This document shows positions 11,105 through 63,995 of a DNA stretch of 64,000 bases, one piece after another. Position 1 is the stretch's first letter. Every line of letters starts with the position of its first letter. Source of the DNA: Cephalotus follicularis (Eukaryota > Streptophyta > Magnoliopsida > Oxalidales > Cephalotaceae). The position numbers and the translations under genes were made by a program. The stretch lies in NCBI GenBank assembly GCA_001972305.1, contig BDDD01002117.1:1-64000 (forward strand), given 5' to 3'. The notes under the pieces were generated by a model. That model worked only from the letters and a program-made list of their open reading frames with translations. It made no database searches and had not been told where the DNA came from.

Positions 11105-11105
11105 C

Positions 11106-30995: not shown

Positions 30996-31136
30996 CGAAG
31001 TGAGTTCATCTGGAAATACATCAGGAAATTAACATACAATAGGCACCTGTTCAATACTAGGCGTACCTTTCGTATAATCAATCACATAAGCCAAATAGCC
31101 TTCACATCCTTGCTTGAGATACTTCTGTGCTGGAGT

Positions 31137-32783: not shown

Positions 32784-32842
32784 TAGGAAACAATTTCACT
32801 TAATTTCTGAGTAACTTATCCCAGCTAGCATATATGGAATAT

Positions 32843-32854
32843 GCTCTGATACCA
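32843..32854 (-). other. Primer binding site of gypsy D
   Basis: Minus strand TGGTATCAGAGC, a perfect match to the initiator tRNA-Met complement as recalled, three bases inside the 5' LTR. Confidence 0.92.
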
Positions 32855-34146: not shown

Positions 34147-34257
34147 AATAGGCTATTCTCAAGAACAGTCGGTTGTTTGGTTGAGTAGTCGACTGTTTGT
34201 TCTTAACAGTAGACTGGTTCGTTTGAGTAGTCGACTGTCATGAAGAACAGTCGACTG
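34147..34257 (-). promoter_or_regulatory. Palindrome array 1, gypsy D 5' LTR (6 units)
   Basis: Units start at 34147, 34167, 34187, 34208, 34229 and 34249, the spacing of its partner LTR within a base. AGTCGACTG is intact in the last units and the first is diverged. Confidence 0.78.
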
Positions 34258-35317
34258 GTTTTCCCACAAAAGAGCAGGCAGTAGCAGGGTATGCATTTCA
34301 ATGCCCAAATACTAAACCAATAAACACATGCAATCAAACAGAAAATTAACCACACACGATATGCATATATATCTTCCAAAACATGTCATTACCCCTACCT
34401 TAAACGCTATCCCGAAATCAATTTGGATTGATTTCTCTCTTTGAGTTCCAAGTCCTTCTCCCAACTCAATCCTCCAATTCCAGTAATCAATCTATATGGT
34501 TGCATGCATACAGCTATAGATATCATTACCAATACGTTCATCTAGTTAGCAGGTCATGATAACAACAAAATCGGAACCAGAAGCTTACAACCAATTCCTA
34601 AGTTCCATTTTCCATTTTCTAACTAAACCAAGTTCAACCTCCAATTTCAGTAATCATCTATCCTTGCATGTTCCAGAAGGTATGTTTAGAGGGTGATTAG
34701 TATATGTATACTTATTGACAACCATAACAACAGCCATGATTCTAATTAGAGGCTTGTAATTTTAACTCTTCTTTGAACCATTTACCAATTCTATTTCAAT
34801 TCAAACTTACTAACTCTTAATCATGTTAACAGAAGGTATAGATATCTAATCCTAGTCTATTTTCCTAGCTATTAACCATAACAACATTAAAGAATTCGGA
34901 TTAGTGACTTACCAGGAGAATCAAAGCTTCACTCACCTTGAACACTCTAACATGCAAGCTCCAAGAAAATCTTTTTTTTTCTCCTTCAATTCCTTCTCCT
35001 CAGTGTTTTCTATCACCAAAATCAGTCCTTCACAGCTGATATAAAGGCTTAGAGTCTTAGAATTCGTTAGGATCCCATTGACTCTGCCTTCCCTCTTTCC
35101 TTCTCTCTCTCACATGCTCCTCTCCTCACTTTTCCTCTTATGTTTTTTTTTCTTGCAGTTGCAGGTCTGTAAATCTTGCAGAAGGAATAGACGACATGCA
35201 AGGCACTCCCATTGCATTTTATGGCAGATGGTGACACGCATCCCACATGCATGCCACGATTAGAACACTTGTCATCACTGTCTCTGCGCATGCCAGACGC
35301 ATGTTTTGTGTCTCTCC

Positions 35318-35396
35318 AATCGACTGTCGTCCTGTACCAGTCGACTGTCTCTTCCACGAATCAACCGGTCGACTGTTACCCTGTGACAGTCGGCTG
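35318..35396 (-). promoter_or_regulatory. Palindrome array 2, gypsy D 5' LTR (4 units)
   Basis: Units start at 35318, 35339, 35367 and 35388 (21, 28, 21), identical in spacing to 27870-27948. Confidence 0.8.
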
Positions 35397-35574
35397 TTTG
35401 AGCTGGTTTTAGGGTTTCTTAAGTTTGTTTTACCAATTTGCAGCTCAAACCAACCCAAGCATTCACTAATGACAATTATCATGATAATTGGATAAATAAT
35501 CTCAATTAAAATGTATATTTTATTAAAGAAGTTGGGCAATATACATTAATTGAAATTTCAGTTATTACACACAG

Positions 35575-37118
35575 CACCACCATTAAGGATAAACACATAT
35601 CCCAAACTAGATTTGTGATCACCAGGATCACTGTTGAAACTAGAGTCTGTGTAGCTCTCCAGTCTTAGCTCACTATCTCCTCCATATATCAAGAAGGTAT
35701 CCTGAGTCTGTCTGAGGTACTTAAGGATCCCCTTGACCACTTCCTAGTGCTTGTCACCGGTATTGGATTGAAATCGGCTTGACATTCCCAGGGCATGCAC
35801 GACATCAGGCCTAGTACATTGCATGGCATACATTATCGATCCTACAGCCGAAGCATAAGGCAACCGATGTGTGTCCTCTCGTCAGACATCTGCGGGGACA
35901 TCCTTTTTGAAAGGTGAATTCCCTGGCCATTTGGCAGCATGCCATGTTTCAAATTCTCCATACTAAATTGGTTCAGCACCATGCTGATGTACTGGCTTTC
36001 GGAAAGCCCAAGCAACCTACTAGATCTGTACCTGAAGATCTTTAAACCCAATATGCAGGAAGCCTCTCCCAAATCCTTCATGGTAAAGTTTTTGGCTAAC
36101 CATACTTTCACAGACTACAACATTCCTACATCATTCCCAATGACAAGTATGTCATCCACGTACAGTACCAAGCAAGAGATACAGGGGTAGACACATGGCG
36201 CATCCACATTTTTGAAGAAGCCAAAAGACTTGACGGCCTAGCGAAAATGGGTGTTCTAGCTATGCGATGCTTGCTCACGGCCAACAATCGACCTTTGGAG
36301 TTTGCACAGCATATGTGGAGACTCCTCGGATGTGTGTTGGGACATATAAATAACCTCTTAAAGATATCCATTCAAAAATACCGTCTTCACATCCATTTGC
36401 CATATCTCATAATCATAATGAGCGGCAATGGCAAACAATATCTGAATGGATTTAAGCATCGCAACTGGCGAGAAAGTCTCGGTATAGGCTACACCAATTT
36501 TTACGTATACCTTTTCGTGACCAATCGCGCTTTATATATCTTAACTTTTCCATCAAGGCCAATCTTCTTCTTAAAGATCCACTTGCACCCAATAGGCACT
36601 ATGCCTTCGGGAGCTTTGAGCAAGTTCCAAACTTGGTTGGCGTACTTGGAATCCATTTCGGATTGTATGGCTTCCAACCATGCCTTGGATTCAATGCCTT
36701 GCACTGCTTCCTGATATCTTACAGGCTCATCATCCTCTATGACGCTGGGTTCATCAGTGCCTTCCACGAGAAAACCATATCTGTCTAGCGCTGTCCAAAT
36801 CCTGCCCCATCTCCTCACTGGAGTAGTGCCTAACTGAGATCCAATCTCAGGCTGGGATCCAACTGCAACTATGTCTCTAGAGGGTCCAACCACTAATTCC
36901 TCACCGTCATGTGGCATTTCTCCCAATGGTAACTCCCGGAGTTCCACTTTGCTCCCACTGCTTCCTTCAATAAGGAATTCCCTCTCTAGGAACTTAGCAG
37001 TACCCAATGCAAAAACGTTTTGCTCATAGGGATGGTAAAAATAGTATCTCATGGTTTCCTTAGGATATCCCGCAAACCAGCAGTGATCCCATCGCGACTG
37101 CAACATAGAAGGCTCCAA
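35575..37118 (-). pseudogene. pol: Copia A RT and RNase H
   Basis: Minus-strand copia pol right of gypsy D: RNase H start (MVKGILKYLRQTQDTFLIYGG, SYTDSSFNSDPGDHKS) and RT parts (LGLKIFRYRSSRLLGLSESQYI; W-L-E-A-I-Q-S-E-M near 36650; CKWIFKKKIGLDGKVKIYKARLV near 36520-36590). These are standard Ty1/copia RT landmarks. The downstream end of this gene is at 25022-25433, beyond the inserted gypsy. Broken in several places. Confidence 0.85.
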
Positions 37119-40690: not shown

Positions 40691-41000
40691 GACATCGATC
40701 CCCTTGCCCGTGGACATCGATGTCTTTCACTTTGGGATGCAGCCTCCTTGATTTCGCAGCAAATACATCTCTATTTCTTCATATGCCTTTCCCCAGAGAA
40801 GGCATCAACGCGAGACATCGATGCGCATTCCCAGGTCATTTTTATTGAAATGCGTCGACGTCTTTGTCCAAGGACATCGATGTCTTCTGCCAAATTTTGA
40901 AGAACATCGATGTCTTTCAAACACATAGATGTCCTTCTACCGTTTTTAAAGGCATTCCCTGATACGCATCGATGTCTTTGGCCAAGGACATCGATGCCTT
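40691..41000 (+). promoter_or_regulatory. Palindrome array, ACATCGATGT type (about 9 units)
   Basis: Units are near 40691, 40713, 40801, 40814, 40851 (a GCGTCGACG form), 40873, 40903, 40922, 40965 and 40987. Paired steps are 22, 22, 19 and 22. The fullest reads GACATCGATGTC (40713, 40873). Flanking words CTTTG and CCAAG recur. The array lies about 540 bases downstream of the TATA box, unlike the U3 arrays of the Sireviruses. Confidence 0.7.
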
Positions 41001-44133: not shown

Positions 44134-44719
44134 TCTCCCACTTGGCCCAAAAACCATGAAGACCTATAAAGAAGCCCCATCGCACTCCGGTGTTGATCTA
44201 GGATAGTGCTCACTAGAGCCTTGGTCAGTGGGTCTCCTATGTTTGCCTCTGAGGCAGCCCTCTCAAAAATTTTGTTTCCTCGCACCACGATCTCCTCAAT
44301 TAGGTGATCACACCGCTCGATGTGCTTGAACCTATTATGAGACCTGGTTCCCTCGCTTGTGCAACGGCCCCATCATTGTCACAGTACACCACAACTAGGC
44401 AACGGATGGAAGGAACCACCCCAAGTTCTGTAATGAACTTCCATATCAATACAGCTTCCTTAGCAACGTCCTAGGCAGCAATACATTCTGCTTCTGTGGT
44501 AGAGTCTGCAGTAGTCAGCTGCTTCCCACTCTTCCAACTCACAGCCCCATAATTAAGGATAAATAAATATCCCGAAATTGACTTGTGATCTTCTGGATAA
44601 CTGTTGAAACTGGAATCAGTGTAACCCTCTTGTTTGAACTCGCTGTCTCCTCCCTATATCAAGATGATATCCTGAGTCCCTCTTAGGTACATTAGGATCC
44701 CAGTAACTTATTTCCAGTG
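44134..44719 (-). pseudogene. pol: Copia B RNase H end
   Basis: Minus-strand copia RNase H, parallel to 25022-25433 and 35575-35740, next to its polypurine tract (about 44134-44143). A Sirevirus solo LTR is inserted at its right edge (duplication CTTCT, 44720-44724). No long frame survives, so recognition rests on the parallel with copia A. Confidence 0.75.
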
Positions 44720-44724
44720 CTTCT

Positions 44725-46003
44725 TGTAGGAAGTCTAGAGGGGGGTGGGGGGGCGTGAATAGACTTATAAAATTAAACTAGCAAATATCCTAGAAACAAA
44801 ATAAACACAATCAATCAAAAGTGAAAATTAAAGAGTGTAGGGTTGAGAGAGTTGCAAACAAATATATAGTGGTTTGGCAAACCGCCTACGTCCATTCCCC
44901 AAGGCCTCCCCTTGAGTGTTTCACTAGTTAGCCCCAATCCGGGCTTGAAATTCCAACCGAGCTTCAACGACTTTCGTTGTAACCAAGCGAGTACAAGATT
45001 TCTCCCTCCGAGCTATACAAGAGAGAACCTCTCTTGTTTACAAGTAAATTGAAAGTCTTTGAATGGTTTACAAATTCTCAACAAATTTGTTTACAATTTA
45101 GCTCAAATCTAAGAAAGCTTCTAGTAATTGATAATGTATAAAGGGAAGGCTTTGTAATGTGTGAAATTGCTTCAATATAATATCTTTTGGTGTTGAGAGT
45201 GTTTAGAATGATTCTTGAGTTGCCTTGAATGATTATCCAACTTGATTGCTTGAAGTCCTTTGAAGAATGCTCCACTTTGGCTTATAAACATGTGCTCCAA
45301 CGGATCTATTTTTGAATGTCTGGCACAATCCAGTCAGTTGGATTTCCAGGGCAGTCAGCTGGAGTTGATGGCACGTTTTCCAAATATAGCCGTTGGTGAA
45401 GGCAGTCGGCTACTTTCTCTGGACAGTCGGCTGTTTCTCCTGGGTAGTCGGCTGGTGCTCTGTTCCTGTCGGCTGCTTGAGGTGAATTGGACTTCCAAAA
45501 AGCAACTGCCTCATTTTGACACACTTGACCATCGGCTGGAGATGTTGACAGTCGACTGGTGACCCTTGGCAGTTGACTGGTGTCCTGCTTCAGTCGACTG
45601 GTTGAGGTGCCGTGGAGTTCAAAAACCTACTGCCTCATTTTGACACACTTGACAATCGACTGGACCCCTTTGGCAGTCAGCTGTTTTGTCCTTGCAGTCG
45701 GCTGCTCCCCTGATGTAGTCGGCTGGTATGGAGAGTAGCTGCAGTTGCTGGGATTCCTTCAAGAACCAGTCGGCTGTTTAATCCAAATAGTCGGCTGCTC
45801 AACCAAGACAGTCGGCTGCCCAACCTAGGCAGTCGCCTGTTTTTGCCTGTATCTACAGAAATAGCCTTTGCACAACTTTGGACATTAAATCAAGTGAGTA
45901 TATGAATTGATGGTTCAGAGAATTATGCATACAGGTATTACATGTTTGTTAATCATCGAAATAACACATGTTAAGGCAATTAACGGGGTGACAAGGGCCA
46001 ACA
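44725..46003 (-). mobile_element. Sirevirus-type solo LTR in copia B
   Basis: Plus-strand ends TGTAGGAAGTC and GGGCCAACA, 1279 bp, with a perfect duplication CTTCT (44720-44724 and 46004-46008). Its minus-strand start (TGTTGGCCCTTGTCACCCC, then CGATGATTAACAAACATG) is related to the 3' LTR of element 1 at 8290. A TATA-like TTTATAAG (minus) lies near 45280. The palindrome array (45332-45839) is the richest in the window. Confidence 0.9.
45332..45839 (-). promoter_or_regulatory. 21-bp phased palindrome array in Sirevirus solo LTR (18 units)
   Basis: Units start at 45332, 45353, then 45404, 45425, 45446, 45467, then 45530, 45550, 45571, 45592, then 45654, 45675, 45696, 45717, then 45768, 45789, 45810, 45831. 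Nearly every step inside a block is exactly 21, and blocks are groups of four. On the plus strand the common form is AGTCGGCTG. The blocks at 45530 and 45654 sit on a 124-bp duplication. Confidence 0.88.
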
Positions 46004-47042: not shown

Positions 47043-47161
47043 CCTTCTGTTCTGTTTTTAACCATGCAACCCTGGTTTTGATGATAACAAAGCACCTAAT
47101 ATCATTTCTTAGTGTGCAAGTAAAAGATAAACAAAACAAGGAAGTGAAGTAACAGGGCAGA

Positions 47162-47313
47162 GCGCCGCCGGTTTTGAGCAAAGCGTCAACGCTTAACAAA
47201 GCTATGAAGGCTATGAGCAAAGCACCAACAATTGAAATCTTTGAAGCTAAAATTGCTTAAAGCGTCAATGGTCTCAAAGAAAGCGTCAGCGGTTTTGACC
47301 TAGGCGTCAACAC
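47162..47313 (+). promoter_or_regulatory. Palindrome array, GCGTCGACGC type, element E 5' LTR
   Basis: Units near 47162, 47183, 47222, 47262, 47283 and 47304; steps are 21, 39, 40, 21 and 21, that is one or about two periods. Forms are AGCGTCAACGC, AGCGTCAATGG, GGCGTCAACAC; many carry CA at the centre where the palindrome would have CG. More units occur near 47370-47520. Confidence 0.7.
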
Positions 47314-47928
47314 TTAAGAGGCTCATATAAGCAGTTTATTCCAAAGACTTGTGGAAAAAATTAAGGAACTCAAAGCGGCAACGCTCAAGGGAAAGCGTCA
47401 GTGATTTATGCCAAAAAATCGACACTTGTAATAAAGCTATAGAAAATTGAGCGAAGAATTCAAATTGAAACTTCTAACGGTAACATAAGCGTCAACGCTT
47501 ACTGTTACTCCTACGACGCTTTGGGCGCTGGCAGAAATTACTGGCAGCAGTTGTAATGCACCATTTGAAGAGGGAACAACTTCCAAGACTGAAAAAACAT
47601 TTTCCAAGACTGAAAAAACAAGTTTCAAGAAAAAGTTGCACTTCCCAAGACAGAGTGCAACTATCCTCAAGGTCAAAACAATTATCACTATTGAAAATCA
47701 ATTGAGCTACATACAACAAGAAGTGACACACACAATAGATCAATAAGAAGAACTTTCATCAACTTAATAGATAAGATCATCAAGAGATCATAGCTTACAC
47801 TTTCATATCCACTTCAAATCTTGTGCCACGCAATCTTTCAATTTCATATCAAACCTTTGAGAGGTTACTTTGTAAACACAAAATCTTTCCTACAAATCTT
47901 TCATTGTAAAGAGGGGAGTGAACCCTTG

Positions 47929-48060
47929 TAAGGTGTTTCTTTGATTTGCACCCGTAAGCCAAAATCAAAGTGTAACGTGTTTCTTTGATTTGCACCAATA
48001 AGCCAAAATCAAAGTGTAAAGTGTTTCTTTGATTTGCACCCGCAATCCAAAATCAAAGGG
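47929..48060 (+). repeat. Tandem repeat of about 44 bp (3 copies)
   Basis: Each unit reads GTGTTTCTTTGATTTGCACC, a few bases, then CCAAAATCAAAG. CTTTGATTT and AAAATCAAAG can pair into a stem. The 3' LTR has only two copies (51484-51568) and element 1 one copy (about 1012-1050), so copy number changes between LTRs. Confidence 0.75.
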
Positions 48061-48286
48061 TACTAGTGGATTCTAGTGGAATCTCAAGGGGATCTTGAGA
48101 AAGTGGACATAGGCATAGAGATTGGCCGAACCACTATAAATTGTGTTTGCATCTCTCTAACTCTATCTCCCTTCATCACTTGTAATTGTTTGATTGTTCT
48201 TCTATACTTGTTTAAATTCATAGTTTAATTTGAATTTTCCGCAAACGAATTTATATTACAAAAAGTTGCCATACAAGACCTTCAAT

Positions 48287-48298
48287 TGGTATCAAAGC
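48287..48298 (+). other. Primer binding site of element E
   Basis: TGGTATCAAAGC, identical to that of element 1, two bases after the LTR end. Confidence 0.88.
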
Positions 48299-48339
48299 GG
48301 TAGATTCATTATTCTTAATTGTTAGAATCTTAAAGATCC

Positions 48340-49954
48340 ATGACAACTTCTATGACTCTAAATATGAGTTTGGAAGGTTCCTCCATATCTAGGCCACCCT
48401 TCTTTGACGGAAATAATTATAGTTTTTGGAAAACAAGAATGACTATATTTTTACAATCCTTAGACTATCAATTATGGAATATTATTGTTAATGGTCCTAG
48501 GCTTCCTACGAGAGTGGTAGAAGGAGTAGAATCTATAAAACCCAAAAATGAATTTAATGATAATGATTTTTGGATGCTTCAATTAAATTCAAAGGCTAAA
48601 CAAGTTTTATTTTGTGTCATTGGTCCAAATGAATTTAACCGTATATCCTCTAATGATTCGGCTAAACAAATGTAGGATTTATTATAAATTACATGTCAAG
48701 GCACAAATCAAGTAAAAGAGTCTAAAATTAGCATGCTTGTACATGAATTTGAATTGTTTTTTATACTTGATGATGAATGTATAAGTGATATGTTTACTCA
48801 CTTTACGACAATTATTAACTCTCTTAAAAATCTTGGAAAGTCTTATCCTAACCAAGAACTTGCTAGGAAGATTTTAAGGTGTTTGCCAAAAAGTTTAACT
48901 CCAAAGGTAATGAAGAATGAGGAAGCTAAGGATCTCTCAACTATTCCACTTGAACAACTCCTTGGTTCCTTGATGACGCATGAAATGACAATGAAAAGTC
49001 ATGAGCATGTGGAGACCAAAAAGAAGAAATCTATTGCTCTAAAATCCTTGAAGGAAGATAGTGAGAGTGATGGAGATAGAGATATGGCACTTATAACTTC
49101 TCAAATCAAGAAGTTTCTAAAAAGTCAAAAGGGTAAAAAGGTTTTCAAAAAGAAGTTCCCACAAGATGAAGAGTGCCCGAATCTTAAAAAGAAAGAGCAA
49201 TTCAAGAAAAGCATAGAGCAATCCAACAAGAAGAAATCTTTTGTAGCTACATGGCTTGATAGTGACTCCTCGAGCTCCAAAGAAGAAAGTGATGAAGAGG
49301 TAGTAAACCTCGCTCTCATGGTAATGGACGAGGAGGAAGAAGATGAGGTAACTTTTTGTTTTGATGAATTGCAAGATGCCTTTGAGAATTTATTTAATGA
49401 ATATAAAAGTGTTTGTTTGAAAAATAATTCTCGCAAGAAAGATGTTATTTCATTGTCAAAAGAAATTGATAATCTAAAGAATGAGAATAGCAGATATATA
49501 AATGAAATTGAATCTCTAAAAATTTAGAATAGCTACTATATGAATGAGATTGAAGTTTTAAATGTTTCTTCAAAATTATCAAATGATTCAAAGGAAGAAA
49601 ATGAAAAATTGAAACTTGAAACTTGAAATTGATGCTTTGAAGAAGACTTTTTCTAAGTTTTCTAATAGTAGTGTCAAATTGGATAACCTACTAGGACTTC
49701 AAAGATGTGTGTTTGACAAAGTCGGCTTAGGCTATGAAGAAATGTATAATGTCAAACATTTTAACAATTTCTTTGTTAAAAAAAATGAGCCCAAAATTGT
49801 TTGTAATTTTTGTGGTAGAATAGGAAATGTTTCTACATCATGCTTTCATAGAAAGAATTATGTTCTTGGTAAATCTAAGAAAGTTTTGGTTCCCAAAGGA
49901 ACTTTTGTAACTAACTTGCAAGGACCTGAGTTCATTTGCGTACCAAAAGCTTAA
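48340..49954 (+). pseudogene. gag: Copia gag of element E
   Basis: Start MTTSMTLNMSLEGSS, then SRPPFFDGNNYSFWKTRM; the capsid-like domain continues with NSLKNLGKSYPNQELARKIL, a lysine-rich linker, acidic SSSKEESDEE, coiled coil (about 49380-49650) and a knuckle-like CNFCGRIGNVSTSC near 49800-49850, ending ...FICVPKA. It is the uninterrupted counterpart of gag in element 1. It would package its RNA, with enzymes supplied by an autonomous relative. Broken in about two places. Confidence 0.85.
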
Positions 49955-50601
49955 ATTTTGTTTTGTAGGAGCACTTGAACATTAGGTCAAATGTTAAAGT
50001 ACTTGTGCTGTAAGATTTCCTTTTACATTTTGTTCTTAAAATGTATCCGTTTCCTATTGTCAAATTGGTATCAATTTTGTTAATTGAAAAATGTTCTTTT
50101 GATGCTAACAAAAAGGGGGAGAGATTATGTTTAGGGGGAGTTGATGATGTTAAGAAATGAGCTAAATAGATAAAGTGTTGAACCAAGAGACTATCTTTTA
50201 TTATACATCCTATTATCAATTTTAAAACTCAGTTAAATGAAGAATTAGACGTTAAGTTAAGGGGGAGCTTAACTAAGGGGGAGTTTATCATTTTTGGGGA
50301 TTTTATGTATGGAGATGTTAAGAAAGCTTATGTTAAGGGGGAGTTGATAAATGAAGCATCGGTTTAATAAGAATGTTTAAAGTATAATAATGAGTACATT
50401 GAAAGGGAGACCTTAGTATTTTTTTATCATAACATGTTAAGGGGAATATTGTCTTTAGAAGCATAACTTGCTATGTACATAATGGGAGAAAGTCTTGAGT
50501 TCTTCAATTTGGTATGTGTTAAGTTTCTTAAAATCAGTATTATCTTTTATTGAAGAATGCTTTTATTGTAAATGTTTTGTAATCATCAAAAAGGGGGAGA
50601 T
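49955..50601 (+). other. Pol-less spacer with multiplied polypurine tracts
   Basis: No protein domain seen. Purine tracts of the AAGGGGGAG type lie at about 50107-50119, 50131-50139, 50259-50267, 50274-50283, 50335-50343 and 50588-50600, the last abutting the 3' LTR. This is a Sirevirus trait, here with six copies. Confidence 0.8.
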
Positions 50602-51792
50602 TGTTGGGTTTTTAACCATACAATCATGGACTGATGATAACAAAGCACCTAACATTGTTTCTTAGTGTGCAAGTAAAAGATAAATGAGACAAGGAAGTGC
50701 AGTAACAGGGCAAAGCGCCGACGGTTTTGAGCAAAGCATTAGCGCTTAACAAAGCTACGAAGGCTATGAGCAATGCGCCAATAGTTGAAATCTTCTAACT
50801 TAAAAGTGCTTAAAGCGCCGACGGTCTCAGAGAAAGCGTCAACGGTCTGGACCCAGGCGTCAACGCTCAAGACGTTCATATCAACAGTTTATTCCAGAGA
50901 CTTGTGGAACCAATTAAGAAACTCAAAGCGGCGATGCTCAAGGGAAAGCGTCAGTGCTTTATGCCAAACAGTCGACACTTGCAACAAAGCTACATCGGAT
51001 TGAGCGAAGAATTCAAATTGAAACTTGCAACGGTAACATAAGTGTCGAAGCGTAGTGTTACTGCGACGACACTTTGGGCGCGGGCATAAATTACTGACAA
51101 CAGTTTTAATGCACCATTTAAAGAGGGAACAACTTCCAAGACTGAAATAACATTTCCCAAGACTAAAAAACAAGTTCTAAGAAAAAACTGCACTTCCCAA
51201 GGCAGGGTGCAACTATTCTCAAGGTCAAAACAATTATCACTATTAAAAATCAATCGAGCTACATACAACAAGAAGTGACACACACAATAGATCATTAAGA
51301 AGAACTTTCATCAACTTAAGAGAGAAGATCATCAAGAGATCAAATCTTACAGTTTCATATCCACTTCAAAGCTTGTGCCAAGCAATCTTTCACTTTCATA
51401 TCAAACCTTTGAGAGGTTACTTTGTAAACACAAAATCTTTCCCACAAATATTTCATTATAAAGAGGGGAGTGAACCCTTCTAAGGTGTTTCTTTGATTTG
51501 CACCAGTAAGCCAAAATCAAAGTGTATTGTGTTTCTTTGATTTGCAGCCGAAATCGAAAATCAAAGGGTACTAGTGGTTTCTAGTGGAATCTCAAGGGGA
51601 TCTTTAGAAAGTGGACATATGCAAAGAGATTGGCCGAACCACTATAAATTGTGTTTGCATCTCTCTAACTCTATCTCTCTTCATTATTTGTAATTGTTTG
51701 ATTGTTCTTGTATACTTTTTTAAATCCATAGTTTAATTTGTCTTTTCAGCAAACGAATTTATATTACATAAAGTTTCCATACAAGACCTTCA
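50602..51792 (+). repeat. 3' LTR of element E
   Basis: Starts TGTTGGGTTTTTAACC and ends AAGACCTTCA, 1191 bp. It carries the GCGTCGACGC-type array at about 50714-51060 (AGCGCCGACGG, GGCGTCAACGC, AGTCGACAC) and two copies of the 44-bp repeat. Confidence 0.88.
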
Positions 51793-53233: not shown

Positions 53234-55257
53234 TGTCACACCCCATTCTCACAATATCAACCCGGAGGTCAAGGCAATTAACATATATATATTCAGCTTA
53301 CACAAAATACGGAAAAATTAAAACTTTTCAACCCATATATTAACGTTTGCCGAACCATTTAAATATAAGCTGAAACAAATAAACGTAGCATGCATCCCAT
53401 ACTACGTGTTATGAAATTGTTTATTCAACAATATAACAACCATCGTTAATCACCCTAAAAATGAAGCATGAACAATCATTCATTAGTACAGGAACCCGTT
53501 AAACATTTCTCAATAAAATACAACTTAAACTTCTCTTCATTTTCCAAAAGCTCAACGATGTCGATCCACCATATCAATCTGAAATTGACAGGGTTAGCCG
53601 AATCCACTGGCTAAGTAGGAAAAATATAAATACACTTAGCGCTCAACGATAATAAAGTCATGTAATGAATGCATTATGATGCAATACATAATATATCACT
53701 ATAAATATATATATGTATATGTGCCAATAGGTAAGCAACCATGCCAAGTGGCTACGACCATACAATCCATCAATCATGCCCAAAGGACAAATCAATCCAA
53801 TCCCGCACGAAGCGTGTAGCCATCTCCTGGCCCCGACGCCGAGCTCCTACTTGAGTCCCGTCTCCGAACGACTCGAAGCAAGTCAAGCAATCAATCCAAG
53901 GTTGCTCATGCTCTGTGTTTAACAACCAGGTTACTTGCACTATGTGTTTAGTAACCAAAAGTGCGTGGAAGTCCCTAGCGATCTCCTGGCCCCTATGTGT
54001 ACATCCCACCCTTAGCCATCAATGACAACTCCGTCACGTGACTAACGCGGCATCAATCCAATCACAATCCCTCAATCAATCCAAAATCAATCCGTTTCAA
54101 GTAGTTTATAAGTTATAAAATACTTGGAACAATACATTTATTGAAAATGTATACCAATCCTTGAAAACAATATTCAGTTTTGAAACCACATTCTCAATCC
54201 TTCAAAAAATGCATTTTCATTTCAACTAATGATTTTTATAAATAAATCATGTATGCATTTTCCAAAATGATAGAACATTTTAGAATCGTTCAGCAATCCA
54301 ATCACAATTCAATCCATAGCAATATGCAATGCAAACGTATGCTCAAATGCAAAACAGGTTCAAATCGCGTCAACGTGTACTATATAGGCGTTAACGTTCA
54401 AAACAGTCACTTAAGCGTCGACGTTTAACTCTTCGTGTCGATGATTATGTCCTTTAAGCGTCGGCGCTTTAACCCTTAGCGTCAGCGCTTTAAACAAGAA
54501 ACTTTACGCGTTAGTACCTTGTCCCTTTGGCGCCGAGGCTTTGAGGTAGGAATCTCACGCGTCAACGTCTCCAACCTTCATTTCCTCGTTTAGCAAGTCA
54601 AGGCGTCGACGCTTTCCCATGTTCATGGTTCAATGAAGCCAACGTACATTTCGCCGCGCAATGATACATAGCGTCGACACTTTCCTTTAAGCGTCGACGG
54701 TTAAAGAAGACCAGAACATTGTATTCTTCAAGCGTCTTAACCAAGTGAAAATACACATGCAATACATGCAATCTAATCCATATTCACTCCAAAATACTAC
54801 ATGCATGGCAGGTTAACAGTTCATGGTAACCACATCGTCAACCAAACAATCCTCAATCCACAATGATCATGCATTATCATCAAATGAGCATCTACTATTG
54901 TTGAACTCAAAATTACATGTATATAGTCCCTACCTTAGATTCCAAGTTAGGAATCGAAGTCCACCTCTTTAAGCTTCACCATTCAGTAGCTTTTAGGTCC
55001 CAGGTCTGGCACAGTAGCTCCAAGTTCGAGATTACAACTCCCCAAGCTTCGAAGCTTTTCACCAGTCCGAAAATGGAGAAAGTGGTTTTCTCTCTTCTTC
55101 TCTTTTCTTTTGGATTTCTCACCGTTTCCTTCTCTTTTCTTTTCTGTTTTCTCTTCGTTTTTCTTTCCTTCTCTTCGGATTCATGGAAGAAGATGGGAAT
55201 GGTGTGCTTGATGCGCTTATCACACCCCGTTTTCAAAGACACACATAAAATCGGTAA
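53234..55257 (-). mobile_element. Part of gypsy G LTR (Tekay-like), end not in window
   Basis: Starts TGTCACACCCC at 53234, directly in copia B pol. It contains CATCCCATACTACGTG (about 53395), the TTAGCC/GGCTAA stem (53594-53614) and a GCGTCGACGC-type array (54367-54700). It does not reach a TTACA end before gypsy F inserts at 55258. A second start-like string, TATCACACCCCG, lies at about 55219. The low-complexity frame at 54976-55242 is not a gene. Confidence 0.7.
54367..54700 (-). promoter_or_regulatory. Palindrome array, GCGTCGACGC type, in gypsy G LTR
   Basis: Units near 54367, 54388, 54415, 54435, 54458 and 54479 (steps 21, 27, 20, 23, 21), then looser units near 54558, 54604, 54670 and 54692. 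Examples are AAGCGTCGACG, AAGCGTCGGCGC and GGCGTCGACGC. It is a Ty3/gypsy LTR using the motif version otherwise seen in copia LTRs. Confidence 0.7.
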
Positions 55258-56478
55258 TGTAACACCCCCATACGGTGGGAGTCATCACAGGTCATAATAC
55301 ATAACCTATAGTAACATAGCATAAATTTAACTGAACATAAACAATCTTTATTAGCCAAAACGTGGAGGTCATAGCATTACTGAAAAACTATTCAGAACAT
55401 AAAACTTAACATATGTCAAAAGTCAAATACCGAAACATAAAACAAAATAGCATATTGTTCAACATGGAATAGCATATTGGCAGTGGTTAACTTCAAGAGA
55501 AAGAATGAAAGAGCCTGTAACATATGCATACATATAAGTCCAATTTTCTGTCCACTACCACTTGCAGACATTAAAACCAGATTATAACATATCCATGGTG
55601 TTTAAAGCATGCTAACAGGCTTAGAAATACAATGACAGAACATATAAAATTTCAGGGACCAAAACTAATTTTAACACCCTATTCGGCATGAAAACAACAT
55701 AACAAAATGGAATAAACCATCACAGCAGGATTCACTAACCTCTAATTGTATTAAGAACCCAGAAACAACAGAAAGAATACCACTGAACAATTGTTAGCCA
55801 GTCGTGCAACAAGAACAAAGGAGAATACAACATAACTCAAAGCTTGCCAAGAAAAGTATAACCAAAAGACAACAAAAGACACAAGAACACAACAATTCCA
55901 ACTTGCAATTTCGGCAGTGACAGGCTTTGGAATTCGGTTGACATATCACAATGACAAAGGCATTCTTAAACGGGAAAAAGAAGAGAGAATAGAGGGAAGA
56001 ATAATGAATTTAGAAACGTAATCTGATCACATATGGAAGAAGAGAAGATTTCCAGGCAATAAGAATGAAAAAAATAGATTGAAAACGTGTGAGGAGATTG
56101 GGAAAGAGAGAGTTACGGGAGAAAGAGAGGGAAGAAAGAAGGAAAGAAAAAGAATAAGTAAAAGAAAAGAATAAATAAATAAATAAATAAAATAATAGAA
56201 ATTAAGAGATTTTTAAAATAGAAGAAAGGGGAATTGTTTTAATAATTTCAAAATTGTAAAATAGAATAAAGTTTTAATAAAATAAAAGTTATGAACATAG
56301 GCCCAACCCAAAATTGCATTAACATATCCAAAATTCAGGCTAGCATCAAACAACCCAAATCACATAAGCCCAAGACACAGGGCAACCGGACTTAAAAATA
56401 AACAAATTAAAAAGCCCGAAAACAAACATATATATAAAAGTCCGCAAAACACATATACGAACAAGCAGGGTATTACAT
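55258..56478 (-). repeat. 3' LTR of gypsy F (short form)
   Basis: Ends TGTAACACCCCC and GCAGGGTATTACA, 1221 bp. It matches both outer parts of the 61222-63995 LTR but contains neither the CCTATGG stem nor the palindrome array. The minus-strand tract AAGGTGGGGTGGA borders it. Confidence 0.88.
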
Positions 56479-56488
56479 CCACCCCACC

Positions 56489-57424
56489 TTAAAAAGGATT
56501 TCGTCCCGAAATCGCAAACATACACATACCTAGACCAAACAAGTGTGGATATCGCTCCCGAAAATGCTCCTCCAGCTCCCAAGTGGCCTCACGTTCGGGA
56601 TGATTTCTCCACAAAACTTTCACAAAAGAAACGGTCTTGCTACATGTCACCCGCACCTGTCTGTCCAGAAGAGCCTTAGCCTCCTTGTCACAAGATAGAT
56701 CCTCCCGAATACTGTCCAACGGATAGTGAACCACATGCAGGGGATGATACTGATAACCCCTCAACAAAGACACGTGGAACACGTTATGGACGTGTGCTAA
56801 CTGCGGAGGCAAAGCTAACCAATAAGCAACCGCGCCTATCTTCTCCAGAACTTCGAAAGGCCCGATAAACCGTGGACTCAACTTTCCTTTCAGCCCAAAA
56901 CGTCGGACTCCTTTCCAAGGTGAAACATTCAAGAACACATGTTCACCTACCTTGAACTCCAAGTGCCTCCGATGTCTGTCCGCATAACTTTTCTGTCGAG
57001 ATTGAGCTGCTTTCCTCCCTTGCTATTGCCACTTTCTCGGTAGTGATCTGCACTAGCTCGGGTCCCTCGATAACTCACTCTCCAACCTCATCCCAACATG
57101 TCGGAGCTCAACACTTCCTTCCATAAAGAGCTTCAAATGGAGCCATATCGATGCTAGTGTGCCAACTGTTGTTGTAGGCAAACTCTACCAAGCTCAAATA
57201 CTCGTCCCAGTTCCTAGTCCACTCCAATGCACAAGACCTCAACATATCCTCCAAGGTCTGGATGGTCCTCTCCATCTGCCCATCTGTCTGTGGATGGAAA
57301 GCTGTACTGTAACTGAGCCTAGTCCTTTCCAAAACCGCGAAGTGAAACGAGGATCCCTATCCAAAACAATGGATACCAGAGTCCCATGTAGTCTCACAAT
57401 CTCCTGCTGAAACACTTCAGCCAA
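56489..57424 (-). pseudogene. pol: Gypsy F integrase and chromodomain
   Basis: Minus strand: core parts ([74 protein letters not shown]) at 57108-57424, then GEHVFLNVSPWKGVRRFGLKGKLSPRFIGPFEVLEKI and the chromodomain FVKVLWRNHPEREATWELEE at 56489-56962. This layout defines Tekay-like chromoviruses. Broken in about two places. Confidence 0.88.
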
Positions 57425-57589
57425 ACTATCAACAGAGAAGTCCTCTCAGATAGAGAAGAAGTGAGCCGATTTAGTTAATCGATCCACTACTACCCAGATA
57501 GCATCGTTCCTTCTGAAAGTTCTCGGCAAACCCGTAACAAAGTCCATCGATATGCTATCCCATTTCCATACTGGAACTTCCAAGGGCTG

Positions 57590-59556
57590 TTACAAACCAC
57601 TAGCACGCTGGTGCTCAATCTTAACCTGCTGACAGATCAAACACCTCCTAACATACTCCGCTCCTTCCTTTTTCATTCCATTCCACCAGAAGTTTTTCTT
57701 CAAGTCTCTATACATTTTCGTAGAACCCGAATGTATAGAAAATGGAGAACTATGTGCTTCTGACAAAACAGCATCTCTGATAGAAGAATCTGACGGAACA
57801 CACAACCGATTACCCAGCCATATCACACCATGCTCATCCATACGAAACTCTGATTGCTTACCCTTTTCAACATTCTGGACTAAGGCCCAAAGCTCACCAT
57901 CATCACTCTGAGTTGTCTTAATCCGAGATATAAGAGTAGGTTCTACATTTATTGTAGCAACACGACTTTCAGAACCCCGAACATACATATGTAAATCCAT
58001 CTGCTCCATATCAGCTATCAACTGCGGTTGAGTAAGCAAAGTAGCTACACTCCTAGAACTCTTCCGACTAAGAGCATCAGCTACCACATTTGCTTTACCA
58101 GGATGGTACTGAATATTCATATCATAGTCTTTAAGAAGTTCTAACCACCTCCTCTGACGCATGTTCAACTCTTTCTGCGTAAAGATATACTTGAGACTCT
58201 TATGATCGGTAAAGACGTCACAAGTTTCTCCGTACAAGTAGTGTCTCCAGATCTTCAACGCAAACACCACTGCTGCCAACTCGAGATCATGTGTAGGATA
58301 GTTCACTTCATAAGGCTTCAACTGTCTCGAAGCATTAGCTATCACATGACCGTGCAGCATCAAAACACACCCCAAACCTTTCTTAGAAGCATCACTGTAT
58401 ATCTGGTATCCACCCGACCCAGATGGTAAGCGAAGGATCGGTGCTGATGCAAGACCATTCTTCAGTTTCTCGAAGCTTGCTTCTCGCTCTTCATTCCATT
58501 CAAACTTAGCCCCCTTTCTCATAAGCTGAGTTAGTGGTAAGGCTATAAAGGAAAAGCCTTCCACAAATCGCCTATAGTATTAGCCAAACCCAAGAAGCTC
58601 CTAACCTTTGTCACTGTGGTAGGTCTCGGCCATTTAGTAATAGCCTCAACTTTAGCAGGATCTACACAGATACCTTCAGCTGTAACCACGTGACCCAAAA
58701 ATGCCACTTGTTCCAACCAGAACTCACACTTTGAGAACTTCGCGTATAGCTGATTCTTCCTCAGAATACCCAACACAATACGAAGTTGTTCTTCATGTTC
58801 TTCCTTCGACTTGGAATACACGAGAATGTCATCTATGAACACAATCACAAACTGGTCCAAGTACTCATCAAACACCCTATTCATCAGATCCATGAAAACT
58901 GTCGGTGGATTAGTGAGTCCGAACAGCATTACCAGAAACTCATAATGCCCATACCGAGTACGGAAAGCAGTTTTAGGCACGTCTTCATCCTTTATCTGAA
59001 ACTTATGATATCCCGATCTCAAATCGATCTTAGAGAAATATCGAGCACCTTGGAGTTGATCAAACAAGTCAGCAATCCTAGGCAAAGTGTATTTATTCGG
59101 AACAGTAATCCGATTCAACTCTCCGTAGTCTATGCACAGCCTCATAGACCTGTCTTTCTTCTTCACAAAAAGAACAGGAGCACCCCACGACGAAACACTA
59201 GGCCGAATGAAACGCCGATCTAACAGCTCTTGCAACTGTTCCTTCAACTCTTGCAGTTCCAACGGTGCCATCCTGTAAGGTGCCTTAGATAAAGGTGCCG
59301 CTCCAGGAATGAGTTCGATGGTAATCTCCACTTCCCGTTGCGGTTGCAAACCCGGTAACTCCTCCGGAAACACATCTGCAAACTCTCGTACCACAGGATA
59401 GTCTTCAAGACGAGGCTCAACCTTTGAGACATCCTTCACAACAGCTAAGAAACCTTCAGCGCCCTTAGCCACCAATATCCGAGCCTTCAAAGAAGATATA
59501 ACCTTCACTTTTTTTCTCGACTGTGAACCCTGACAAATAAAATCAGGTCCATTCAC
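57590..59556 (-). pseudogene. pol: Gypsy F reverse transcriptase, RNase H and integrase start
   Basis: Minus strand. RT at 58543-59556: [54 protein letters not shown] and the catalytic box FIDDILVYS, with both aspartates present, then [21 protein letters not shown]. RNase H at 57900-58560: [49 protein letters not shown]. The left end (57590-57700) has the zinc-binding start of integrase ([21 protein letters not shown]). This is the best preserved pol in the window, with few breaks. Confidence 0.9.
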
Positions 59557-59559
59557 ATC

Positions 59560-59993
59560 TCAAAACAGAACCCTCAAAGCACAGCAGTCAATCGTAGCCC
59601 GATGACGATCCAACCAGTTCATACCCAGAATCATATCGAAGTCATACATATCGATAAGAAGAAGATTCGCATCCCGAATCCGATCATCGAAAACAAGGGG
59701 ACAAGCATAAATAAACTCATATATCACAACAAAAGAACCCGTAGGGGTCGAAAGAACCAAAGCTGGATCAAGAAATTGTGAAGACATCCCAATATACCGA
59801 ACAAAAGACCTCGCTGCAACCAAGTGGGTCGATCCAGTATCATACAAAATATAAGCCCTACGGTTACCAACATAAATAAAGCCTGAAACAGTACCTGGTG
59901 CATTAGCAGCCCGCTGCGTTGTGATAGCAAGGACACGACCTCCCACATTGCGCTATCCAGGATCTGCATTGTTCCCCCTCCTTTCCTTCGCAC
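59560..59993 (-). pseudogene. pol: Gypsy F protease
   Basis: Minus strand: GTVSGFIYVGNRRAYILYDTGSTHLVAARSF, with the DTG triplet of retroviral-type aspartic proteases, then the landmark FDMILGMNWLDRHRATIDC, which precedes RT in gypsy pol. It processes the polyprotein. Confidence 0.88.
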
Positions 59994-61060
59994 GAGGATC
60001 AGGACAATCGTTCACGAAATGCCCTTTCTGACCACATACAAAACAGGCCCCGATAGCCTTGTAGCACACTCCCACTGGATGTTGTCTGCCGCAAACATCA
60101 CACTTGGAAATTTGGACATTCGGAGATCCCTTTGTCTGCCTCTGATCATTACTGGTCTGTTGCTGTCCCCGGTTATCATTCCTCCTTCCTCGTTTTCCAT
60201 TTCTATTCTTACTATTCTATCCAGAACCTTGCCCTTGGGACTCTCCCCTGTTTCTCTTCTTGTCACTTTCCTGACGAGCTTCCTGGAAATCTAGCCTCTC
60301 CAGCTCTATGTTATTCACTGCATTTGCCACTTCAGAAACATCAGCAAACCTGGTGTTAATCAGTTTACCCCTAAGCTGATAGTGTAACTTCCAGTTGAAC
60401 TTGTCAGCCTGCTCCAGTGCTGTCCTCGCCGCGAACCCAGCAAAACCAGCAAGCCTAGTTAAATGGGTCAGAAACTCCGAGTCCGACTCTCCATCCTTCT
60501 GTCTTGTATTGATGAACTCCCTGGCTTAAGCCTCCCTATCAGCAGCGGGAAAATACTGCTGATAGAAGACTTCGCAAAACTCCGACCAGGTCAAAGTCTC
60601 TGTATAGTTACCACCCTTAGCCAAACCCAGAGCCTTTCACCATTTCTGAGAATCACCCTCAAGCTTGTAAGCAGCTAACTTAACCTTCTACTTGTCACTA
60701 CAACCAAGCACATCAAAGATCTTGTCCATATGAGCAATCCAGTGCTCAACCTCCACAGGACTCACGGCTGAGCTGAAAGACTGCGGTCTCTGCTTCTGGA
60801 ACCGCTCAAGCCAGATATAAGCAGGTGTGTCAGTCCTGTCCCCAGCTTCGCTTCTCAACTGAACATCAGCTGGAGCATCCTCCTCAGCAACCGACTCCCT
60901 ACAGCCTTGTTCCTAATTCTACTAACTCATCACGCGTCGTACCTCATGAGCGACTGCCTGACGCACTAACTCTTCCATGGCAGGCTCATTTCTGACTTCT
61001 TGAGCCTCTACGGGTGCAGTCCTCTGAGCAGAGTTCCTTGTGCATACCATCTACGAAAAG
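59994..61060 (-). pseudogene. gag: Gypsy F gag with zinc knuckle
   Basis: Minus-strand traces of a retrotransposon gag: VEHWIAHMDKIFDVLGC around 60700-60760, SEFLTHLTRLAGFAG around 60440-60490, then INTRFADVSEVANAVNNIELERLDFQEARQ around 60280-60360, and knuckle CFVCGQKGHFVNDC (C-X2-C-X4-H-X4-C) near 60010-60050. Broken in several places; plus-strand open frames here are shadows. Confidence 0.75.
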
Positions 61061-61204
61061 GCACTCAAAACATAAAACATCACAAAGAACAAAGACCGAA
61101 ACAAAAAACATATCATAAAATCATAACTGAAACAGCCTAACCCAGTGCCTACCCAATCTCACAGGTCAAACCTAGTTAGGTCTTCTAAGGAAACAAAACC
61201 TAAT

Positions 61205-61216
61205 TCTCTAATACCA
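61205..61216 (-). other. Primer binding site of gypsy F
   Basis: Minus strand TGGTATTAGAGA, five bases inside the 5' LTR. It resembles the initiator tRNA-Met complement TGGTATCAGAGC with two differences. Confidence 0.75.
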
Positions 61217-61221
61217 CAATC

Positions 61222-63995
61222 TGTAACACCCCCGGACGGCGGGAGTCGTCACAGGTCATAATACAGAACCTATCGTAACATAGCATAACTTTAACTAAAC
61301 ATAAACATTATTTATTAGCCAAAACGTGGCGGTCATAGCATTACTGAAAAACTATTCAGAACATAAAACTTAACATATGTCAAAAGTCAAATACCGAAAC
61401 ATAAAACAAAATAGCATATTGTTCATGACCACTAAAAATCAAAGACACATAAGGATCACACTCCTAGGGATCCATGACATAAGGTGGCCAACTCTCATTC
61501 ACACATTCCCCCGTTGCTCCTGATAACCTGCCGCATGGAAAACAAAAACGCGGCTGAGCAAACCTCAGTACGGATAAGGAAACAAAAAGCAGTAAACGAT
61601 AAATTTAAAAGCATTAAAATTTCAATAAAATTCGTAACAGAAATCTTAAGAAATTAAAACAGTTTAATCATATTCGAATTTCCATAAAATACAAATTTTC
61701 ATATCTTTCGAAACATTTACGAAACATCTCAAAAACATCATCTCATGATTGATAAAGTCATATTGAGCCACATACATATCACATTTCATAACATAGATTG
61801 GCAAGGGAGGCGCTAATTCCACATGCCCACTAGAATTGCAGTGTACGACACTACACAAGTCAATTCTCACATATCATTCCATATCACATATCATATACTA
61901 GAATCAATTCATACGCCTCTATCATACATAGCGGATCCATAAATCCACCTCATGGGATTTATTCATAACATTCAGAGACGCCGTGAACTAATCACACCGT
62001 TGCGGAAGTGTCATGTCCCTGTGCCAGGCCTACGACATGCCTATGGTACGCCCCATAGGTGGGTACAATACTCAGTATTCAATCATTTAGAAAACATTGA
62101 TTTATCAAAATCCATTAAAAACACATAGATATGCTTTCACAACATATTTGACACTCGTTCACAACGATATCATAAAATACATTTCATAGTCAAAGCATCA
62201 ACTCATTTATTTTTCGTGATAAAGAGATGATCATTTCATAACATATCGTAACGTATCATAACATAAAAATAAAGTCAGGAACATTTAAATTCATAAAATG
62301 TCAAAAACAACTTCATTTCTGAAATATAATCCAGTCCATAAAACGAAGGAACATAGCATAAAACAAAACTGATTTCAGTTCGATAAAACCAGATAGCTAA
62401 AGAACGATAGAAATTCGTACCTTATGCGTTCACAAAAGCACTTACGGATAGATTGTTAATTCAACTCCCCTTTTGAAGCACAACAATCTAAAAGACACCC
62501 AAAATCATTCATATAAGGGTCTAAGAAACATTAGAGACATTAAACTGACTCATTACAGTGTTTAGAAAAGACCCGGATTCATTCAGAGAACAAACGGATC
62601 AAAACTGTTGAAAACAAAAATTTTTTGGGCAAAACAGGCGACTGTCACAAAGCTCCAGTCGACTGTGGAAGCTTTGTAGCCAACTATCCAATAGGGCCAG
62701 CCGACTACACAACAGAAACAGTCGAATGCTTTCATATGACAGCCGACTGCTCAACCAAACCAGCTGACTGTTCATATAAAAACAGCCGGCTGCTCAACCA
62801 AACCAGCCGACTGTTCTGGTCGACAGAATAGTAGAAACACAACATTTTCAATACAAAAACTACCCAAACATGAATGACATCATACTAGAGACATATGAAC
62901 ATATACATGAGACATTATATGATGTTTAGATGACACAAAAACATAGAATTGACATGGAATAGCATATTGGCAGTGGTTAACTTCAAGAGAAAGAATGAAA
63001 GAGCCTGTAACATATGCATACATATAAGTCCAATTTTCTGTCCACTACCACTTGTAGACATTAAAACTAGATTATAACATATCCATTGTGTTTAAAACAT
63101 GCTGATAGGATTAGAAATACAATGACAGAACATATAAAATTACAGGGACCAAAACCAATTTTAACACCCTATTCGGCATGAAAACAACATAAGAAAATGG
63201 AATAAACCATCACAGCATGATTCACTAACCTCTAAGAAACAGCAGAAAGAATACCACTGAACAATTGTTAACCGGCTGTGCAACAGGAACAAAGGACAAG
63301 ACAAGATAACTCAAAGCTTGCCAAAAAAAGCATAACCAAAAGACAACAAAAGACACCCACAAACCTGATATTGATGAAGAACGAATCAACACAAGAACAT
63401 AGCAATTCCAACTTGCGATTTCGGCAGTGACAGGCTTTGGAATTCGGTTCACATATCACAATGACAAAGGCATTCTTAAACGGGAAAAAGAAGAGAGAAT
63501 AGAGGGAAGAATAATGAATTTAGAAACATAATCTGATCACATAAGGAAGAAGAGAAGATTTTCAGGCAATAAGAATGGAAAAATAAGATTGAAAACGTGT
63601 GAGAAGATTAGGAAAGAGAGAGTTACGGGAGAAAAAGAGGGAAGAAAGAAGGAAAGAAAAAGAATAAGGAAAAGAAAAGAAATAAATAAATAAAATAAAA
63701 TAATAGAAATAATAGAAATTAAGAGATTTTTAAAATATAAGGAAAGGGAATTGTTTTAATAATTTCAAAATTGTAAAATAGAATAAAGTTTTAATAAAAT
63801 AAAAGTTATGAACATAGGCCCAACCCAACATCGCATTAACATATCCAAAATTCAGGTTAGTATCAAACAACCCAAATCACATAAGCCCAAGACACAGGGC
63901 AACCGGACTTAAAAATAAAACAAATTAAAAAGCCCAAAAACAAACATATATATAAAAGTCCGCAAAACACATATACGAACAAGCAGGGTATTACA
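61222..63995 (-). repeat. 5' LTR of gypsy F (long form)
   Basis: Ends TGTAACACCCCC and GCAGGGTATTACA, 2774 bp. It contains CTGAGCAAACCTCAG (about 61553-61567), the CCTATGG/CCATAGG stem (62040-62059), a TATA-like site (62508-62518, minus) and the palindrome array (62636-62813). The open frames at 62625-62831 and 63225-63459 are chance. Confidence 0.88.
62636..62813 (-). promoter_or_regulatory. 21-bp phased palindrome array in gypsy F 5' LTR (9 units)
   Basis: Units start at 62636, 62657, 62678, 62699, 62720, 62741, 62762, 62784 and 62805: six steps of exactly 21 in a row, then 22 and 21. Forms are AGTCGACTG, AGCCGACTG, AGCCGGCTG and AGCTGACTG. The array starts about 120 bases upstream (element sense) of the TATA-like site. 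It is the most regular gypsy array in the window. Confidence 0.85.

Follow-up and report, generated by a model that had tools for sequence, protein, structure and literature searches.

The 64,000 bp stretch of Cephalotus follicularis DNA analysed here (contig BDDD01002117.1, positions 1-64,000; referred to below as the window) consists of nested plant long terminal repeat (LTR) retrotransposons, as revealed by self-BLAST and Pfam searches. Both Ty3/gypsy and copia elements carry arrays of a 10 bp quasi-palindrome, CAG[T/C]CG[A/G]CTG, repeated in most cases every 21 bp. We have designated this motif v1; it was scored as a 10-mer, with C or T accepted as the first base and A or G as the last. 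A second version, v2 (AGCGTCGACGCT), has the GTCGAC core and the step in common with v1 and was also present in copia and gypsy elements. LTRs were assigned from target-site duplications (TSDs), identified by eye, or from conserved ends, together with Pfam domains. No match was obtained when the window was scanned with Rfam and for tRNAs.

In the window 108 matches to v1 were found at a score of at least 9/10 and 67 at 10/10, compared to 4-14 and 0-1 respectively in ten length-matched first-order Markov sequences. This is the number of units that a first-pass annotation had counted by eye (about 108), and all 12 of the sites at which it placed arrays hold them, the first unit at 27870, 34147 and 45332 scoring only 8/10. 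The matches were strongly clustered, with 101 of the 108 in 13 clusters. As only seven were single, v1 occurs outside the arrays at chance density; the equal density in non-LTR DNA that the annotation had named as an argument against its interpretation was not seen. Five of the 108 units (6270-6407) are internal to copia C and thus outside its LTRs. Pairwise distances of up to 130 bp, taken over all pairs in the window, were 21 bp in 55 cases, 20 bp in 11, 28 bp in five, 22 bp in three and 19 bp in one. When 26 sampled 10 kb stretches were added to the window, 75 of 110 neighbour steps of up to 40 bp were 21 bp.

Analysis of the whole C. follicularis genome (1,577,397,061 bases, 9,746 contigs) revealed 38,225 exact v1 pairs with a gap of 8-14 bp, all gaps counted together, and 137 pairs of the reversed control. 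In the first 20 sampled stretches (200 kb, at places fixed beforehand) v1 was present 29 times at 10/10 against 0-2 in the null sequences; at 9/10 or better the count was 58 against 25-31, just about twice chance. The most frequent palindromic 10-mers of this sample that were not purely A/T were CAGTCGACTG (n = 14) and GCGTCGACGC (n = 12). A general scan for palindrome pairs at 20-22 bp was too strict and was not used, and a search of viral contigs for the paired motif gave two matches, which we read as chance. In 37 of 46 copia v1 units position 4 was C and position 7 was A, the AGCCGACT form, so that the copia unit is only quasi-palindromic. The form with G/C throughout, AGCCGGCT, was present in 2 of 103 units, close to the expectation under independence (by hand), and a half-site rule was therefore rejected.

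The shared motif and step in copia and gypsy LTRs, which the first-pass annotation had reported, were therefore confirmed. The nine gypsy arrays, however, come from two families, A and B, that are related to each other, and the copia LTR arrays (two in C, one in E) are mutually homologous and form one Sirevirus-like group, so the 12 sites cannot be counted as independent. Each gypsy family has three LTR copies with v1, and the 2.7 kb LTR of family A contains two arrays, A1 and A2. Gypsy A and gypsy B look like one lineage, as DNA of their reverse transcriptase (RT) region is approximately 65% identical and both encode SH3_Tf2-1 and a weak chromodomain (E 0.0007-0.0085, below the Pfam cut-off, in 3/3 copies). 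Compared with the domain set of a Ty3/gypsy chromovirus, in which a chromodomain follows integrase, the Pfam domains of gypsy A were protease, RNase H, integrase and gag, and those of gypsy B were RT, RNase H, integrase zinc finger and SH3_Tf2-1. A protein search with the gypsy B RT gave at least 8,000 matches, predominantly from plants. The left LTR of gypsy B (55258-56477) lacks approximately 1.5 kb of the right LTR, including the array.

Copia C and copia D showed 84% and 78% nucleotide identity over two stretches of their gag regions. The polypurine tract (PPT) AAAAAGGGGGAGAT precedes the 3′ LTR of both, and a sequence like a primer binding site (TTGGTATCAAAGC) and a Pfam match to copia gag were also found. 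A gag-like open reading frame (ORF) is present in C (1279-8289) and in D (48285-50601), with no pol domain in the ORFs scanned, and both look non-autonomous. A further ORF of copia C (6564-7652) contains one in-frame stop and matches PF20167, 'putative plant transposon protein', below the Pfam cut-off. Its first part (6564-7085) had 199 protein relatives at E ≤ 1e-5, and the best 120 of these 199 were all from C. follicularis, with up to 93% identity.

Table 1. Retrotransposons and palindrome arrays of the window, with positions on the forward strand of the contig.
Feature	Position	Strand	Details
v1 array, copia C 5′ LTR (LTR around 262-1278)	267-650	+	
v1 array, gypsy B-type solo LTR 1687-4763	3470-3632		TSD GTTAC
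v1 units internal to copia C	6270-6407	+	n = 5; ~160 bp upstream of ORF 6564-7652
v1 array, copia C 3′ LTR (8290-9470)	8454-8842	+	TATAAAA at LTR position 595
v2 array, unassigned LTR-like repeat 9471-12259	10511-10800		
v2 array, second in LTR-like repeat 9471-12259	11886-12009		
v1 array A2, old gypsy A LTR 13522-16059	14804-14944		
v1 array A1, old gypsy A LTR 13522-16059	15781-15910		
v1 array, gypsy B-type solo LTR 17960-20063	19365-19574		TSD AATCC
Gypsy A element	25434-35569	-	TSD CACAG; LTRs 25434-28121 and 32858-35569 (94%)
v1 array A2, gypsy A left LTR	26703-26814		
v1 array A1, gypsy A left LTR	27870-27948		
v1 array A2, gypsy A right LTR	34147-34257		34162-34260 aligns to 62716-62817, opposite strand
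v1 array A1, gypsy A right LTR	35317-35396		
v1 array, copia solo LTR E (44725-46003)	45332-45839	-	TSD CTTCT
Copia D	47048-51792	+	TSD CCTTC; relative of C; v2 units at 47160-47500 and 50713-51075; no v1
v2 array, gypsy A-like LTR 53234-55257	54413-54703		
Gypsy B element	55258-63995	-	TSD GGTAA; right LTR 61222-63995, left LTR 55258-56477
v1 array, gypsy B right LTR	62635-62813		9 units at 9/10 or better; steps 21, 21, 21, 21, 21, 21, 22, 21

The spacers between units had been described as unlike in the first-pass annotation. This was wrong for gypsy B and A2 and is doubtful for copia. Alignment of the gypsy B LTR with A2, by BLAST against a database of six gypsy LTRs of the window, showed 78.6% nucleotide identity over 103 bp on opposite strands (E 8e-16). 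In the local alignment five spacers were collinear and 40 of 47 aligned spacer bases agreed; the B array (B62) agreed with its own relatives at 80 of 99 (B19) and 60 of 92 (B03) spacer positions. In a stricter test the motif and the spacer edges were fixed and the inner spacer columns were permuted 1,500 times. For A2 and B the minus orientation gave p 0.0007-0.009 and the plus orientation p 0.31-0.98. Copia E matched A2 in the minus orientation (p 0.003-0.011; plus 0.12-0.17) and B62 in the plus orientation (p 0.007; minus 0.84). A1 compared with E or B62 gave p 0.18-0.69. A looser test comprised 126 cross-family tests in both orientations, of which 99 gave p ≥ 0.05, 27 gave p < 0.05 and 11 gave p < 0.01, the copies not being independent; all 11 results below 0.01 had orientations that fit one common module, and some pairs with A1 gave p 0.013-0.037.

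These alignments support transfer of the array between gypsy A2 and gypsy B and make transfer between copia and gypsy likely, but not proven, as a shared second motif beside the palindrome, GGTTGAG, would yield the same copia-gypsy signal. Gypsy A1 showed no clear tie to any other array and may represent convergence or very old descent. The annotation had offered convergence or transfer, and had taken alignable spacers as an argument against its own interpretation. Transfer is supported for A2 and B, whose spacers do align, so that this argument applies in part, and is suggested for copia E with both gypsy arrays, while A1 remains without a clear relation or alignment. Transfer, rather than convergence alone, is likely because the A2 and B spacers align and the copia spacers match weakly in a consistent orientation.

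Conservation of the motif was measured by masking it in one sequence and reading identity in the other. In five comparisons of diverged gypsy copies, identity was 270/352 (0.77) in the motif, 258/479 (0.54) in the spacers and 1319/1968 (0.67) in the flanks (motif against flank, p 0.0003). Both LTRs of copia C compared with E gave 231/280 (0.83), 310/509 (0.61) and 316/512 (0.62) respectively. Between the two LTRs of one element the order was reversed: motif 202/230 (0.88), spacer 347/377 (0.92) and flank 1047/1097 (0.95), so that the motif was less well kept than the flank (p 4e-5), its difference from the spacer being less clear (p 0.09). These identities are to be read with the caveats that the copia C 5′ LTR aligns with the 3′ LTR from base 262 only and that adjoining positions are not independent. 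In the within-element pairs 23 of 141 CG/CHG motif positions differed (15 of these were transitions), compared to 5 of 89 other motif positions; outside the motif the corresponding figures were 72 of 343 and 110 of 3112. The faster decay of the motif after insertion is explained by its richness in CG/CHG. This is most simply read as retention of the motif in active lineages and its loss from inserted copies through mutation driven by methylation, methylation being presumed. Agreement between units inside an array was 0.67-0.88 in the motif, a figure inflated by the motif-based choice of units, and 0.33-0.50 in the spacers.

The two versions of the palindrome, which behave as two dialects, were hardly ever found together. 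At up to two mismatches v2 matched 28 times in the window and 0-1 times in shuffled sequences, and in 14 v2 arrays 33 of 86 steps were 21 bp and 11 were 20 bp. Of 23 hand-picked LTR or internal regions, 15 contained 5-16 v1 units and no v2, and eight contained 3-12 v2 units and at most one v1. Clusters of three or more units called blind were all pure in the window (17/17; 13 v1 and 4 v2). In the 260 kb of samples there were seven v1 clusters, ten v2 clusters and one mixed cluster (six v2 units and one v1), giving 34 of 35 pure overall. LTRs with two arrays agreed in dialect: the left, right and old LTRs of gypsy A, L016 twice, L028, L022, L010, L013, L026 and the repeat at 9471-12259, although several of these are related to one another, and in L022 and L010 the second array is represented by two matches each. 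Spacer homology among v2 arrays was sought with z-scores. Some pairs scored high whichever orientation was used, probably because the conserved v2 palindrome extends beyond the 12 bases protected from shuffling, and nothing was concluded from these scores.

Related elements can differ in dialect, apparently through exchange of segments of the unique 3′ (U3) region of the LTR. The copia C 3′ LTR is a mosaic. It resembles E (62-80% per 60 bases) to approximately 8890 and D (81-97%) from approximately 9190, which makes a U3 swap in copia C clear. A TATAAAA box lies at approximately 8884, about 42 bp past the end of the array, and the corresponding position of copia E reads TTTATAAG. Among gypsy elements, internal DNA of L022 is 90.0% identical to gypsy A over 3,215 bases; its LTR shows 76-80% identity over positions 1-450, 90-93% over 451-750 and 44-65% over the remainder, where both arrays, of v2, are located. 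L010, also v2, shows a pattern like that of L022. L028 carries v1, is 88.7% identical to A in internal DNA and keeps 78% over LTR positions 501-2517. Gypsy A bodies 88-90% identical to that of the window are thus found with v2 (L022 and L010) and with v1 (L028), and this makes a reader encoded by the element body unlikely. A U3 swap is likely in L022, and we infer that the dialect difference within gypsy A arose in this way. The v2 LTR at 53234-55257, which is gypsy A-like, aligned with A at 58-64% over parts.

We favour the explanation, to which we assign a probability of about 0.6, that the arrays are exchangeable U3 enhancer cassettes of LTR retrotransposons, maintained by selection and spread by recombination, with a predicted dimeric DNA-binding protein of the host as reader and two dialects. 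Each 10 bp quasi-palindrome would be a putative site of this protein, and the 21 bp step would set adjacent dimers two helical turns apart on the same face of the DNA. Copia and gypsy elements of Cephalotus would depend on these sites and retain them by selection while active. Arrays would grow and shrink by approximately 21 bp at a time and would be acquired between elements by recombination; the inversion of A2 relative to B would be tolerable because an enhancer would be orientation-independent. An LTR would hold one dialect, v1 or v2, and element bodies would change dialect upon a U3 swap. The single trans-acting host factor proposed in the first-pass annotation is supported indirectly, in that the motif outlasts spacers and flanks in diverged lineages, one of two versions is used per LTR and each version occurs in both superfamilies. 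A more specific form of this explanation, in which the two palindromes with their GTCGAC core and 21 bp step make up a promoter code read by two related host proteins, with U3 cassettes crossing between copia and gypsy and with changes of dialect in lineages whose coding body stays the same, is put forward tentatively and may well be wrong. We also speculate, as an assumption of our own, that methylated C might be read as T, which would make AG[T/C]CGACT resemble the WRKY W-box (TTGACT) on both strands and methylation part of the signal.

Several observations weigh against the enhancer-cassette explanation. The literature search gave no known plant factor for the motif among the matches listed. 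The 28 bp step (9 of 110 neighbour steps) is not a whole number of helical turns. Gypsy A2 lies approximately 0.8 kb downstream of a TTTATATC box, as read from alignments, and this puts its role as an upstream enhancer in doubt. Purity of single arrays is expected from tandem duplication alone. In the old v1 copy of gypsy A identity drops from 81-89% to 47-75% over the LTR part in which L022 diverges, so the gypsy A U3 evolves fast in any case. Similarity between copia and gypsy spacers was modest in the stricter test for copia E and B19 (p 0.067), C5 and A2l (p 0.049) and C5 and B62 (p 0.034).

The alternatives differ in what they make of the shared spacers, the reader and the conserved motif. 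If each family's array had arisen independently under one host factor, with no transfer of DNA and with GGTTGAG accounting for similar spacers, one would expect what is seen in A1, unrelated to other arrays in the stricter spacer test, and in the self-BLAST, where no copia LTR matched a gypsy LTR (at least 120 bp, E ≤ 1e-10); selective retention of the palindrome would also fit. Pure convergence is nevertheless unlikely, as it leaves the five collinear A2-B spacers on opposite strands (p 0.0007), the match of copia E to A2 and B in consistent orientation only, and the mosaic U3 of copia C to be accounted for. We consider it equally improbable that the reader is an anti-silencing factor encoded by a transposable element (TE), like VANC of VANDAL, whose sites other families carry in order to exploit it. 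VANC motifs are short, dense, tandem and variable among related elements, and those of VANC6 also occur in the unrelated AT9TSD1, according to the part of PMC5735166 consulted; the faster decay of motif cytosines in CG/CHG compared to other motif positions would suit such a factor. Against this, dialects differ between gypsy bodies that are 88-90% identical and between copia C and D (78-84% in the gag region), and the ORF beside the internal array of copia C matches only PF20167, which has no known function.

The arrays might instead act as RNA, palindrome hairpins in LTR transcripts feeding or controlling small RNAs, as suggested for maize Sireviruses, in which palindromes are small-RNA hotspots in the portions of PMC10760457 and PMC5311732 compared. 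Both gypsy arrays folded better than shuffled sequences in the sense direction (z -7.3 for A2, z -4.9 for B), as did the antisense strands of B (z -3.0) and copia E (z -3.2). The two sense-strand copia arrays analysed folded no better than shuffled sequences (z -0.2 for E, z -0.8 for C). A fixed 21 bp step would be unnecessary for hairpins, and RNA pairing is not the conserved property, because the AGCCGACT form that prevails in copia has two mismatches when paired with itself. Hairpins are thus less likely than sites for a dimeric factor, and we regard them as quite improbable overall. That the arrays are functionless, a neutral minisatellite or recombination hotspot spread by unequal exchange, fits their gain and loss of units and blocks but seems to us barely credible, given that the motif is conserved across lineages despite being mutable through its CG/CHG richness; the within-array agreement of motif (0.67-0.88, inflated by the choice of units) and spacer (0.33-0.50) also speaks against it.

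Additional repeats were present in the window. The LTRs of copia D contain, at 47927-48062 and 51485-51570, 44 bp tandem repeats with inverted ends (CTTTGATTT...AAATCAAAG). A junction of the same two repeats was found at 35567-35753 and at 44537-44725, copia solo LTR E being inserted at the second. A possible third palindrome array lies at 40691-40998, with GACATCGATGTC exact at 40713 and 40873 and near copies around. At three mismatches GACATCGATGTC occurred 32 times in the window and 17-26 times in shuffled sequences, a slight excess only. Its core, ATCGAT, recalls the ACAATCGATTGT of Tnd-1.

No report of one palindromic array common to copia and gypsy LTRs was found among the literature matches listed, in a search that covered mainly papers outside subscription. 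Two systems share features with the Cephalotus arrays. The maize copia palindrome CACCGGACNNNGTCCGGTG is also present in Helitrons, as a motif of structured regions (PMC10760457), and is like the Cephalotus motif in that one palindrome is common to different transposon classes in one genome; the part of that paper compared describes no array step, exclusivity or U3 swapping, unlike what is seen here. VANDAL elements of Arabidopsis likewise have dense tandem short motifs in their non-coding parts, of fast-evolving types and with one unrelated sharer, but the VANC reader is TE-encoded and the motifs given in the portion of PMC5735166 compared are not palindromes, whereas the Cephalotus arrays are without a linked reader gene.

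The closest known system is that of the Sirevirus RM boxes (PMC2829016, 2010). The sections of that paper compared here describe high-copy palindromes in the upper half of the LTR, upstream of the TATA box, with one palindrome per element; they start 200-400 bp into the LTR, extend over 300-500 bp and have extra copies in the linker of env-bearing elements. Copia C is like a Sirevirus in its PPT AAAAAGGGGGAGAT before TGTTG, and E in the similarity of its LTR to that of C. Their LTRs contain 12-16 v1 units each at 9/10 or better, only quasi-palindromic, comparable to the at least eight copies per element of RM boxes. The position is also similar, the array spanning 165-553 of the copia C 3′ LTR with TATA at 595 and starting at approximately 165 in E, slightly earlier than the range given in those sections of PMC2829016. 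The five internal units of copia C would correspond to the linker copies, which lie upstream of env, if the ORF that they precede (6564-7652), which matches only PF20167 below cut-off, were an env gene. RM clusters are CpG islands in most elements in the same account; the three copia arrays have a CpG observed/expected ratio of 0.49-0.65 (window 0.60) and are not CpG islands. The part of PMC2829016 compared calls RM boxes Sirevirus-specific, states no step, and gives a CGG-CCG core in all but one case, Tnd-1. The Cephalotus core is instead CAG-CTG, neither v1 (CAGYCGRCTG) nor v2 (AGCGTCGACGCT) having the CGG-CCG signature, and its step is fixed near 21 bp. A Vitis Sirevirus RM, CGGTCGACCG, has the same GTCGAC core as the Cephalotus arrays, and functional tests of the Sirevirus palindromes were called for, in the same part of PMC2829016. 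The Cephalotus palindrome and step, being present in Ty3/gypsy LTRs also, are not confined to Sireviruses. We know of no identified reader of the Sirevirus palindromes. With copia and gypsy elements carrying the same palindrome at the same step, and 38,225 exact pairs in one genome, the question of the reader is reduced to a single affinity experiment. Unrelated retrotransposons may, moreover, draw their promoter segments from one common, exchangeable pool, in which case an element could be controlled independently of its coding genes.

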